Made by a program: the position numbers and the translations under genes. Shown here in pieces: positions 4,627 to 20,290 of a DNA stretch of 21,742 nucleotides. The notes beneath the pieces were generated by a model. The model was not told the origin of the DNA. It worked only from the letters and a program-made list of their open reading frames with translations, and made no database searches. How positions within the stretch are numbered: the first letter of the stretch is position 1; each line of letters starts with the position of its first letter. This DNA comes from a virus: positions 1-21,742 of the IMG/VR virus record IMGVR_UViG_3300035698_001633; one strand, given 5' to 3'.

Positions 4627-4737
4627 TTAGGCTACCCTTCGTGAATCTTTGACTGGTTTATACGATCTCTTTGCTTTCTTTCTTACTATCACCTTCTTTT
4701 TAGGCTTCTTTCTTACTATGACTTTTTTCTTAGGCAT
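4627..4737 (-). CDS. Very basic 36-residue peptide with a tandem repeat
   Basis: Starts at the ATG at 4737, four bases after the stop of the preceding small membrane gene, and ends at TAA. Residues 2-11 and 12-21 are an exact-frame tandem duplication: PKKKVIVRKK then the same ten residues up to the last two positions (the first copy reads PKKKVIVRKK, the second PKKKVIVRKK followed by AKRS). About half of the residues are Lys or Arg. The function is unknown. Such peptides can bind nucleic acid (virion DNA condensation, like adenovirus core or histone-tail-like peptides), but this is inference. Evidence for being real: tight spacing in the operon, an A/T leader (ccaataattaa) like neighbouring genes, and codon changes between repeats (AAA/AAG swaps) that preserve the peptide. 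Confidence 0.6.
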   Translation of the reverse strand: MPKKKVIVRKKPKKKVIVRKKAKRSYKPVKDSRRVA

Positions 4738-17030: not shown

Positions 17031-17429
17031 TTAAAGTGTATTAGTTTCTTCTAACTGTGCCGCTCCTGGGAACGCTTTGCCTTGTGCTAGTTTCTTTAAC
17101 GAATCTCTAACATTACTTGGCAACTCTAAAGGTTCAAAAGCGTTCTGCTCTCTACCTCCGTTACCTGCCCAACATGGACAACCTGAATTCTTTTCCATAG
17201 CCATTAAGCAGAACTTGCATAACCTCTTGCCAAACTGTCCTAACTTCATGTTTTCAGCGTGATACCATTTATCGAACTGTTGTATGGTCGGGATTATCTG
17301 TAAAGAAATCATATCCCCTTGTAATTGGACAAACTTAGCCTTCGTGCTAATAGCCATGTAGACCCCCTCTTTTTCCTTTTCCGATAGTAAGTATCTTGTT
17401 TTTGTATGTGTTTCTAAAATGTAATTCAT
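17031..17429 (-). CDS. Hypothetical protein with Cys cluster (132 aa)
   Basis: Starts MNYILETHTKTRYLLSEKEK at 17429, four bases after the initiator stop. A central part has C-x2-C then C-x-C (LCKFCLMAMEKNSGCPCWAG), which could bind a metal. It is followed by a basic/polar C-terminus (NVRDSLKKLAQGKAFPGAAQ). No family is recognised. An internal Met at residue 25 is an alternative start. Placement next to the replication initiator and the identical leader style suggest a replication or early accessory factor. Confidence 0.6.
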   Translation of the reverse strand: MNYILETHTKTRYLLSEKEKEGVYMAISTKAKFVQLQGDMISLQIIPTIQQFDKWYHAENMKLGQFGKRLCKFCLMAMEKNSGCPCWAGNGGREQNAFEPLELPSNVRDSLKKLAQGKAFPGAAQLEETNTL

Positions 17430-17431
17430 GT

Positions 17432-18196
17432 TTATGAGATTAAGTAACCTTCGGGCTGCTTTTCTACGTAGCCTTTGATCTGTTTATAAATATACTGCAA
17501 GCTTCCCATATTATTTCTATGGAATGGCTCACTTGACAAAGCCTCGAAACGGTGGCGAAATTCATCTCGGGATATTTTAACCATTAGGTTTACTAAATGC
17601 TTTCCATATATCCTCTGCATTTTAACTGTTTCTTTAAAACCTGTTAATCCTAATGATCCCTTAATAACTTCCAACATCTTATTGATGTCTTCATTTCCGT
17701 AACTTGCTTTTTTAATAGGTTCCGCTATTGGGGTATCAGAACTTTTTTCTGTACCTACGTTAGTAGGTATATTTATTTCCTTTATTTCCTTTACTTTATT
17801 TCCTTTACTTTCCTTTATAGCATTGCGGTCGCTTTGCGTTTGCATTGCGTCTGCATTTTTCCACCTTGTCTTAGCCGCTTTACGAGCTATCGAACTTTTC
17901 AATTCCCTTTCTTTAAAGAATTTCAAGAGCCTATTTGACCAGAAAAAAGTATCGTCTAATTCAAACAAATCGTAGTTCCGTATTACGTCCGTAATGCGTT
18001 CGCATTCGGTGTGCATTGCGTATGCAATATCTTCCACATCCACAAGCCGTAAACGAGCCTCTGAAGAGGCCGCTACTAACTCAACTAGGTACCAGTAAAT
18101 ACCGTAACCTTCCAGCCCTAGCGTCCTCCTTAATTTTATAACTTTTTCATCCTCATGAGCATTATAGTCGTGAGGAAAGTAAAAACTTTCTTTCAT
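17432..18196 (-). CDS. Replication initiator / replisome organizer (DUF4373-like)
   Basis: A 254-residue protein. The N-terminal ~90 residues (YFPHDYNAHEDEKVIKLRRT, then LGLEGYGIYWYLVELVAASS) match the Lin1244/Lin1753-type (DUF4373) winged-helix domain found in phage and prophage replisome organisers. The middle (residues about 105-160) is low-complexity and charged (TRWKNADAMQTQSDRNAIKE, KGNKVKEIKEINI). It is encoded by iteron-like DNA (see the origin entry), as in phages whose origin lies in the initiator gene. The C-terminal part is helical (FRHRFEALSSEPFHRNNMGS) and may recruit helicase. No walker motif is present. The leader is AACAACAACATTAACAACAACAAAG, no Shine-Dalgarno. Named by N-terminal domain and origin, so the exact family is uncertain. 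Confidence 0.75.
   Translation of the reverse strand: MKESFYFPHDYNAHEDEKVIKLRRTLGLEGYGIYWYLVELVAASSEARLRLVDVEDIAYAMHTECERITDVIRNYDLFELDDTFFWSNRLLKFFKERELKSSIARKAAKTRWKNADAMQTQSDRNAIKESKGNKVKEIKEINIPTNVGTEKSSDTPIAEPIKKASYGNEDINKMLEVIKGSLGLTGFKETVKMQRIYGKHLVNLMVKISRDEFRHRFEALSSEPFHRNNMGSLQYIYKQIKGYVEKQPEGYLIS
17775..18027 (-). repeat. Candidate replication origin: 11-bp iterons and A/T-rich repeats in the initiator gene
   Basis: Two arrays of tandem 11-bp units, plus-strand consensus TGCGTnTGCAT. Array A: 17984-17994 (degenerate), 17995-18005, 18006-18016, 18017-18027. Array B: 17824-17834, 17835-17845, 17846-17856, preceded by GCAT. Beside array B, 17775-17816 holds four A/T-rich direct repeats (three exact copies of ATTTCCTTT at 17775, 17784, 17798 and an ACTTTCCTTT variant at 17807), a likely unwinding element. 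The reading frame through both arrays is maintained. Eleven is not a multiple of three, so the codons shift phase from copy to copy, which argues that DNA, not peptide, is conserved. Confidence 0.75.
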
Positions 18197-18222
18197 CTTT
18201 GTTGTTGTTAATGTTGTTGTTA

Positions 18223-18375
18223 TTATCGAATGTTGCCCTGCTTTAATAAACCAAATGTAAGCTTATTAACCTTGTCTAAAAACTTAGAGTCTTCACTAAG
18301 TTCTACTGCTAATATAGTTAAGATGTACCTCTTAACCTCTTCCCGCCCTTCCTCTGTCTCTATAACTGTGTCCAT
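18223..18375 (-). CDS. Small helical early protein (50 aa)
   Basis: First leftward gene from the control region. ATG at 18375, leader AACAATAACAACAACAGGAT, one of the few with an AGGA close to the start. It reads MDTVIETEEGREEVKRYILT then ILAVELSEDSKFLDKVNKLT and FGLLKQGNIR. It is acidic at the N-terminus and basic at the C-terminus, all predicted helix. The role is unknown. Its position ahead of the initiator gene suits a small transcription or replication regulator. A possible promoter at 18400-18430 drives it. Confidence 0.55.
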   Translation of the reverse strand: MDTVIETEEGREEVKRYILTILAVELSEDSKFLDKVNKLTFGLLKQGNIR

Positions 18376-18399
18376 ATCCTGTTGTTGTTATTGTTATTC

Positions 18400-18430
18400 A
18401 GTATACATTTTACTCCTACTAAAAAGTCAA
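18400..18430 (-). promoter_or_regulatory. Leftward early promoter, proximal
   Basis: Leftward reading: -35 TTGACT (18425-18430) and -10 TATACT (18400-18405), spacer 19 bp, which is long. The TSS near 18393 gives an AAC-rich leader of about 18 bases for the 50-aa gene. Confidence 0.5.
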
Positions 18431-18508
18431 CACAAGAAAAAAGAGGTAGTCGCCAGTTAAGGCTTTCCCCCTTTGCAGGTAAACGTGTTTATGATTCAAC
18501 CTACCTAG

Positions 18509-18536
18509 AACATAGCATGATGTCTTTTATTGTCAA
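18509..18536 (-). promoter_or_regulatory. Leftward early promoter, distal
   Basis: Leftward reading: -35 TTGACA (18531-18536, perfect), 16-bp spacer, -10 TATGTT (18509-18514) with TGC before it. It lies back to back with the rightward promoter at 18566-18594 in the 250-base control region, which holds no convincing gene. Confidence 0.5.
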
Positions 18537-18565
18537 GCTGTACTATTCAGTCTGTACTAATCTTA

Positions 18566-18609
18566 TTGCTATTATCGTTTTAGCGTGATATTCTCTATTC
18601 GTGTTTATA
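18566..18609 (+). promoter_or_regulatory. Rightward early promoter, first copy of the 34-bp block
   Basis: -35 TTGCTA (18566-18571), 17-bp spacer, -10 TATTCT (18589-18594) with TGA before it, an extended -10. The block CGTTTTAGCGTGATATTCTC (18576 onward to 18609) recurs at 21532-21565 with 28 of 34 identical positions, including the transcribed part ATTCGTGTTTATA. TSS about 18601, leader about 25 bases. Confidence 0.8.
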
Positions 18610-18625
18610 TCTAACCCAAAATAAC

Positions 18626-18992: not shown

Positions 18993-19196
18993 ATGAATAA
19001 TTTTGAAAGCTGGCTGTTCGATAATTTTGAAGGCCGAGAGACAACGGACGATTGCGATATTATACAGGAAATGTTTGTTGAATGGTGTTGCGGACTTAGT
19101 CCTGATGAATGGATGAAGTTAGGAGACCAACATGTAGAGTATGTCTTTCATAAGACAGGAGAAATAATTAAAGGTTTAACTAAAAACTATGAATAA
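18993..19196 (+). CDS. Small acidic hypothetical protein (67 aa)
   Basis: ATG one base after the preceding stop. It reads MNNFESWLFDNFEGRETTDD then IIQEMFVEWCCGLSPDEWMK, a helical, acidic protein with two adjacent Cys. The end overlaps the ssDNA-annealing gene by eight bases (ATGAATAA). Early position and acidity are like those of the gene before it. Function unknown. Confidence 0.65.
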   Translation: MNNFESWLFDNFEGRETTDDCDIIQEMFVEWCCGLSPDEWMKLGDQHVEYVFHKTGEIIKGLTKNYE

Positions 19197-19689
19197 AAAG
19201 ACAGCAACGATAGATTTGAAAGGTAAAGAGTATGCAACAGTACCAGCTAGACTTAAAGAGTTTAGAGAAGCTTGCCCAAATGGACTAATTGAAACTACTC
19301 CTACTATTACAGATGGAGAGATAATGTTTAAGGCTAGAATCTTAAGCGATAAGTCCGACCCTTCAAGTGGTGAAGCAACTGGTCATGCAATCGGTAAGAC
19401 TGGTAAAGACAAGGCATTTGAAAAGCTTGAGACTATTGCGGTCGGTAGAGCTTTGGCAATGTTAGGGTACTTAGCTTCTGGCGAGATCGCCTCTAGTGAA
19501 GAGATGGAGAAGTTCCACGAGTATAAAGACGTTAAGCGTGAGGAAGCTTTACTTAGCCTACACGACTGTAGCACCCTCGAAGAACTTAAAACATGTTACA
19601 TGGGACTTGGTTCGCTTATGGGTGATGCGCAGATTATAAAAGCTAAAGATGAAATAAAACTTAACCTACAATCAAATGAAAGTAATTAA
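19189..19689 (+). CDS. Single-strand DNA annealing protein, Rad52/Erf-like
   Basis: 166 residues. The core (residues about 60-95) reads SGEATGHAIGKTGKDKAFEK then LETIAVGRALAMLGY. The AFEKLETxAxGRALAMLGY signature is shared by phage Rad52-like/Erf-type annealing proteins, which carry ExAxxxAxGRALAxLGY. An N-terminal strand pair precedes it and a helical C-terminal tail follows (YKDVKREEALLSLHDCSTLE). It directly precedes a YqaJ-type exonuclease, the usual partner in two-component phage recombination. It likely anneals complementary strands during replication-linked recombination. The exact superfamily (Rad52, Erf, RecT) cannot be settled by eye. Confidence 0.65.
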   Translation: MNKKTATIDLKGKEYATVPARLKEFREACPNGLIETTPTITDGEIMFKARILSDKSDPSSGEATGHAIGKTGKDKAFEKLETIAVGRALAMLGYLASGEIASSEEMEKFHEYKDVKREEALLSLHDCSTLEELKTCYMGLGSLMGDAQIIKAKDEIKLNLQSNESN

Positions 19690-20290
19690 AATCACACAAG
19701 AAGGTGACGAATGGAAAGACTATAGACTTGGCAAGATAACAGGTACTAAGCTGAAAGGGATTATAGTTAAACGTGGCACTAAAAAGAAAATAGGCTTCTA
19801 CCAGTTAATGGCTGACCGTATTGCAGTTGATGACGGTTATGATAGCCCTATGGAACGAGGCAATGCTCTTGAACCAGAAGCTATTGAAAGGTTTGAACAG
19901 GAAACAGGGCGAAAAGTTGAGACAGATCTATTCTGTGTTTCGGATAAGAACCCTAACATAGCTCTATCGCCAGACGGACTAATCAACCTTAAGGGTAAGT
20001 ATAGTGAAGCAGTTGAGGTGAAATGTCTTAGCTCGGCCAATCATCTACAGGCTTACTTTAATAAAGAGATTCCCTCTGAGTATATAGAGCAAGTTATACA
20101 GTACTTCATAGTAAACGAAGACTTAGAGCTTTTGCATTTCGTTATGTACGACCCTCGTATTAGTGCTTTACCTTACTTTGAGATCCCTATACTTCGTGAA
20201 GACTTAGAAGATAAGATTGAAGAGTACTACGAATACCAAGTCAAAACATTAAACGAGATAGACGAACTACTCCTTGACCTAACATTCTAA
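19676..20290 (+). CDS. YqaJ-like recombination exonuclease (PD-(D/E)xK)
   Basis: 204 residues overlapping the annealing-protein gene by 14 bases. YqaJ motifs in order: N-terminal RLGKITGT (17-24), ERGNALEPEAIERF (60-73, G62 and E66), SPDGL (98-102, D100), EVKCL (114-118, E114 and K116), and EQVIQYF (138-144, Q139). Those are the D, E-x-K and Q positions of the fold, giving a Mg2+-dependent 5'-3' exonuclease. With the annealing protein it forms a SynExo-type pair. The stop shares one base with the next start (TAATG). Confidence 0.9.
   Translation: MKVIKITQEGDEWKDYRLGKITGTKLKGIIVKRGTKKKIGFYQLMADRIAVDDGYDSPMERGNALEPEAIERFEQETGRKVETDLFCVSDKNPNIALSPDGLINLKGKYSEAVEVKCLSSANHLQAYFNKEIPSEYIEQVIQYFIVNEDLELLHFVMYDPRISALPYFEIPILREDLEDKIEEYYEYQVKTLNEIDELLLDLTF

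Follow-up and report, generated by a model that had tools for sequence, protein, structure and literature searches.

A Probable Iteron Origin of the Lambda Type within the Coding Sequence of a Lin1244_N Initiator

The window analyzed in this study, a stretch of viral DNA of 21,742 nucleotides, very probably carries a replication origin of the lambda type, in which the iterons lie within the gene of the initiator that would bind them. The gene contains two arrays of 11-bp units and, adjoining one of these, a tract of short A/T-rich repeats with low duplex stability. In related phages, the repeats are conserved at the level of DNA and occupy a fixed layout, and the gene of a helicase or a helicase loader is found as a neighbor. 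Together with the domain layout of the predicted protein, this arrangement suggests binding of the arrays by the initiator, melting of the adjoining tract, helicase loading and origin activity.

Results

The replication initiator-like gene (17432–18196, minus strand) encodes a protein of 254 residues that belongs to the Lin1244_N family (PF14297; E = 3.6e-13, 50.5 bits against a curated cut-off of 25). Residues 6–89 align to positions 1–94 of the 95-position profile, so that the N-terminal domain is covered. The protein also matches phrog_2562, annotated as 'replication initiation protein' (E = 5.5e-14). PF14297 was the sole family found; there was no sequence match to the RepA_N domain, and phrog_678 (the lambda O family) is absent from the protein's four phrog matches.

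In the AlphaFold2 model of the initiator (mean pLDDT 75), two folded parts, a winged helix at the N terminus and a helical part at the C terminus, are joined by a disordered linker, residues 121–161 of which have pLDDT below 50. Helices are modeled at residues 51–61 and 65–74. By its position in the model, the latter is predicted to be the recognition helix of a helix-turn-helix, and its codons (17975–18004, minus strand) overlap iteron array A. Searching the PDB with this model in Foldseek returned nothing at E ≤ 0.001, and the family profile had no match among PDB sequences. A structural search with VIA-align matched many winged-helix proteins at middling Z scores, the highest being 6.6. The Rep-DNA complex 5kbj is among these weak matches of the winged helix, at a Z score of 5.6, where values below 8 may reflect a common arrangement only. 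As the scores peak at 6.6 and are spread over many winged-helix proteins, no specific fold family is claimed.

A 50-residue ORF (MDTVIETEEGREEVKRYILTILAVEL..., 18223–18375, minus strand, read by eye) lies directly upstream of the initiator gene. A/C-rich leaders (AACAACAACA) precede both the ORF and the initiator gene, and an obvious Shine-Dalgarno sequence is absent. Leaders lacking a Shine-Dalgarno sequence are common in Bacteroidota.

Scored for mismatches against the plus-strand unit TGCGTnTGCAT, the initiator gene contains seven 11-bp units in two groups 127 bp apart, as an earlier, sequence-only reading of this DNA had described. Array B (17824–17856, minus strand; linker codons, residues 114–124) comprises two exact copies of ATGCNNACGCA at 17835 and 17846 (0 mismatches each) and one degenerate unit, TGCGGTCGCTT, at 17824 (three mismatches). 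Array A (17984–18027, minus strand; codons 57–71) is weaker, its four units at 17984 (TACGTCCGTAA), 17995, 18006, and 18017 carrying 4, 1, 2, and 1 mismatches, respectively. The units at 17824 and 17984 are the two that had previously been called degenerate. Array B ends in a terminal half-iteron, GCAATGC (17820–17826, minus strand), and aligned copies place it directly against the melting element in almost every relative. The tandem repeat search proposed as a check (TRF) independently calls array B at 17820–17857, with a period of 11 and 3.5 copies, and also recovers the A/T-rich array.

Allowing at most one mismatch, the motif has eight occurrences in the window where 2.8 would be expected, a count reached in 0 of 100 shuffles, and five of these eight matches fall inside the two arrays. 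A null was also constructed by shuffling synonymous codons, with the protein and codon usage of each gene held fixed. Against this null, the 11-bp periodicity of array B in the window gene is significant (p = 0.0005), as is the gene-wide number of exact iteron sites (p = 0.002), and array A of the window gene alone displays no significant excess (p about 0.15). The window has no match in Rfam. The arrays had both been assigned to the low-complexity middle of the protein. This is correct for array B, which, together with the melting tract, codes for the last part of the first domain and for the linker, but array A is located in the folded winged-helix domain of the AlphaFold2 model.

The putative unwinding element (17772–17818, minus strand) adjoins array B. 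Its coding strand is composed of (ATAAAGG/AAAGT/AAAGG)n, and TRF describes it with units of 9 or 14 bp. Four A/T-rich direct repeats had been proposed here; three are exact copies of ATTTCCTTT on the plus strand, starting at 17775, 17784, and 17798, and the fourth is instead CTTTCCTTT. The periodicity of the window tract yields p = 0.011 at lag 5 and p = 0.004 at lag 14. The gene is at its least stable over the 40 bp that start at 17760, which also rank among the lowest 0.34% for the window. The adjacency of the A/T-rich repeats to one array, also noted previously, is kept in relatives: in 31 of the 47 genes that allow the measurement, the melting repeats start 3–4 nt past the final half-iteron (AATGC). 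In 35 of 56 relatives (about 17% expected), the stability minimum falls between +40 and +160 nt of the anchor. In Lin1244_N genes, the tract takes the form (AAAGG)n, with 62% A and 2% C on the coding strand.

Periodicity was further analyzed in 71 non-redundant initiator genes, picked by protein and not by repeat, with significance set at p ≤ 0.005. The synonymous null is beaten at lag 5 in 40 of these relatives, at lag 10 in 33, at lag 11 in 31, and at lag 22 in 22, and lags such as 7, 8, 13, and 16–18 are significant in only 0 or 1. An identical test of 111 neighboring genes as controls identified lag 5 in one and lag 11 in one. Neither 5 nor 11 is divisible by three, so these periods cannot come from a repeated peptide. 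Across 56 genes, array A contains 33 exact sites where the null gives 4.6 (no more than 11 in any of 200 shuffles), and array B contains 56 where it gives 9.5. Pairs of sites separated by multiples of 11 are present in 12 genes for array A (1.3 expected) and 32 genes for array B (11.7 expected). Comparison of the window gene with that of L001, the closest relative at 71% protein identity, shows identical synonymous codons at 27 of 31 positions in the repeats versus 78 of 140 elsewhere (p = 0.001), and at 14 of 14 in the melting tract. The sequence-only reading had argued that the 11-bp period is not explained by the peptide alone, and had named a comparison with related phages as its refutation test. 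The outcome was the opposite of a peptide kept and a period lost: relatives retain the period beyond what peptide and codon usage account for.

The sites are also fixed in position relative to a conserved RW codon. Those of array A lie at -194, -183, -172, -161, -150, and -139 nt, forming one 11-bp register in which the slots retained differ between phages. Those of array B lie at +10, +21, and +32 nt, shifted by linker indels. A recognizable array is absent from some members (L222, L224, L242). Among distant relatives, Lactobacillus LBR48 has AAGGA-type repeats, EF62phi has A-rich 5-/10-bp repeats plus a weak 11-bp unit, and Vibrio phage 1.042 has a weak 11-bp array only.

The iteron ATGCNNACGCA is found in DUF1376 (PF07120) genes as well. 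The pattern ATGCNNACGCAATGCNNACGCA has at least 120 matches in viral contigs, and nearly all of the matches listed sit directly after a K-S-K-A-S-A-RW segment. The 74 dereplicated ORFs among the matches listed include 46 DUF1376 and 16 Lin1244_N members, numbers that are uninformative on frequency because the set was chosen by DNA pattern. With the repeats removed, the N-terminal domains of the two families still align as homologs (hhalign 97.6%, E = 2.6e-12), and the identical 11-bp unit recurs in proteins of about 30–45% identity and in both families. Prophage genes drawn by family carry other 11-bp units at the equivalent position, namely CAACGGCGTTC (L258), CAACGACCGTG (L257, about 10 copies), AGTTCAACGGA (L276), AACGACCGTTG (L249), and GACGGGGACAG (L268). 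In other clades, therefore, the period and the place persist and the unit changes. Several members drawn in the same way have no 11-bp array.

The stretch past the array was analyzed in 40 DUF1376 genes, 25 of which display a 7-bp period (AACCANN-like) at p ≤ 0.01. Lag 14 is seen in 20 of the same 40 genes and lag 5 in none. The 7-bp AACCANN of DUF1376 genes replaces the 5-bp AAAGG, and neither is a codon multiple. Two sequences with pattern matches are unusual in other respects: L036 (5232–5586) has four iteron-pattern matches in a region where the longest sense ORF is 58 residues, and L095 has three in an apparent N-terminal domain, not in the linker.

The DnaB gene is the next gene after the initiator in three relatives (L003, L006, L229) and one gene further in L005. 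A DnaC-like gene lies beside the initiator in L219, L220, and L239, as ydaV does in the E. coli Rac prophage, and L245 and L246 carry an annotated one. Within the 21.7-kb window, which is a fragment, neither a helicase nor a loader gene was recognized, and the gene directly downstream of the initiator (17031–17429) has no family match. Two DUF1376 relatives, ydaU and L033, have C-terminal parts that match phrog_678, 'replication initiation O-like'.

In the Rac prophage, ydaU (DUF1376; L244:6120–6977, E. coli K-12) adjoins the DnaC-like ydaV and contains TGTTCAAACA dyad repeats at the equivalent place. These have mixed spacing, the first two being 33 bp apart (3 × 11). An active origin, oriJ, has been reported for the Rac prophage (PMC3945230), and the TGTTCAAACA repeats in ydaU are a candidate for its location.

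Discussion

In the proposed mechanism, the N-terminal winged helix would bind the 11-bp iterons, which are spaced by one helical turn, in array B and also in array A further upstream. The initiator assembled on the iterons would wrap or bend the DNA, forming a nucleoprotein complex that would melt the A-rich short-repeat tract adjoining array B, and the C-terminal domain would then recruit the helicase via a DnaC-like loader or phage DnaB. Where array B and the melting tract lie, the protein sequence can drift, since only a flexible linker is encoded there. It is tempting, if rather doubtful, to speculate that the clade-specific repeats (5-bp AAAGG in Lin1244_N, 7-bp AACCANN in DUF1376) are more than easily melted DNA and form a single-strand recognition element, bound by successive initiator subunits or the helicase loader at a clade-specific fixed nucleotide step. 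Such an element would have a role like that of the DnaA-trio. The protein code would then be overlaid by two DNA codes that differ in period, and one array would share codons with the recognition helix by which it is read.

An origin inside an initiator gene is of an established kind, and the candidate origin would operate as the known cases do. The lambda origin, oriλ, lies inside the initiator gene O, as do its Stx-phage versions (PMC7466680). In RepA_N theta plasmids (pSK41), the N-terminal winged helix binds repeats that are central in rep, the ori-coded segment forms the linker, and the C-terminal domain contacts the replication machinery (PMC5703833). The precedent in lambda and other phages cited by the sequence-only reading accords with the first of these reports (PMC7466680).

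The candidate origin resembles oriλ in its mid-gene location, in its tandem iterons with an adjoining A/T-rich unwinding tract, in extra iterons that lengthen the protein linker, in the helicase-loading gene next door in relatives, and in the phrog_678 match of ydaU and L033. Lambda iterons are about 18–19 bp, whereas those of the window are 11-bp, head-to-tail and unrelated in sequence. The window gene further differs in having a second array among the codons of the winged helix and an N-terminal domain of the Lin1244_N/DUF1376 type, and its melting tract consists of 5-bp (AAAGG) repeats, replaced in DUF1376 genes by 7-bp (AACCANN) ones. Features common to RepA_N are the central repeats, a linker coded by the candidate origin, a C-terminal domain that would engage the replication machinery, and the winged helix, for which 5kbj is among the weak structural matches. 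In contrast to RepA_N, the module described here belongs to a phage, lacks a RepA_N sequence match, and has a helicase or loader neighbor in relatives, where contact with DnaG is known for RepA_N. The Rac prophage has the same order of a DUF1376 gene followed by a DnaC-like gene, and linker repeats after a conserved K-rich segment, but its iteron is TGTTCAAACA, in mixed spacing.

No literature linking DUF4373/Lin1244/DUF1376 to an origin was found in a search of open-access papers, and an earlier description may exist. With the same scope, an 11-bp iteron common to Lin1244_N and DUF1376, a second array in winged-helix codons, and clade-specific 5-/7-bp melting repeats were not found described. 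The exact iteron, which the sequence-only reading suggested may be new, is widespread and not unique to the window phage.

The repeats might be the shadow of a needed low-complexity peptide, NANAMQTQSDRNAIKERKGKEIKE, with the DNA itself having no role. This peptide is recurrent, and the repeat is mostly read in one frame, the three frames being used by 60, 9, and 5 of the 74 pattern-selected, dereplicated ORFs among the matches listed. However, the 14 ORFs that use other frames largely refute this explanation, and it is very improbable in view of periods of 5, 7, and 11 bp that are non-codon and exceed synonymous shuffles, the retention of the 11-bp period in clades with other peptides, the predicted disorder of the region, and the conservation of synonymous sites. 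Functionless products of neutral slippage in the disordered linker are hardly credible as a source of the tandem units. Short tandem repeats do arise easily in linkers under low constraint, and copy number varies among relatives, but slippage does not account for an 11-bp unit common to proteins of such low identity and to two Pfam families, nor for array A, which lies inside a folded domain on one register with synonymous conservation, and neighboring genes show nothing comparable.

Other roles for the DNA may also be considered. Direct-repeat arrays occur at the centromeres of plasmid-prophages, and the arrays could by analogy serve in partition or packaging and not in initiation. The chance of this is slight, since the array stays in an initiator-like gene from phage to phage, nearly all matches listed are DUF1376 or Lin1244_N ORFs, the terminase genes of the window are 3–4 kb away, and no ParAB pair is seen beside the array. 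Iteron-binding initiators commonly autoregulate, and the arrays are intragenic, on the coding path, as would suit operators through which the initiator or another phage regulator blocks or limits transcription of the initiator gene, with the origin elsewhere. Operators, however, have no need of a conserved, unstable short-repeat tract at a fixed distance, and the layout matches those of oriλ (PMC7466680) and RepA_N origins (PMC5703833), in which the sites are origins. It is therefore unlikely that the arrays are operators in place of an origin, although the two roles can coexist.

An origin embedded in the initiator gene would probably provide both a candidate origin and a function for two large families, DUF1376 (annotated as 'unknown') and Lin1244_N (barely described), from phages and prophages of Bacteroidota, Pseudomonadota, and Firmicutes. 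The odd recurring peptide (NANAMRTHSEGNA, KERKGKEIKE) would be explained as a by-product of DNA sites, and the origin of very many uncultured phages would become readable from sequence. Iteron sequence and melting-repeat period have changed between clades with the layout constant, which sets up a comparison of these systems, and the Rac prophage offers an E. coli laboratory strain for a test of the embedded origin.

The remainder of the window contains several further features. The GC skew changes sign near 18.4 kb, in line with the inflection that had been proposed as a check, but the coding strand switches at the same point, and the skew was rejected as origin evidence because it is not independent. 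The coding strand and the skew switch together in a divergent intergenic region at 18197–18625. A phrog_11717 gene (unknown) followed by a YqaJ-type exonuclease gene (PF09588) occupies 19189–20290 (plus strand); the two resemble a recombination pair and are transcribed away from the initiator. At 4676–4735, where there is no listed long ORF, two 30-bp tandem copies match at 86%.
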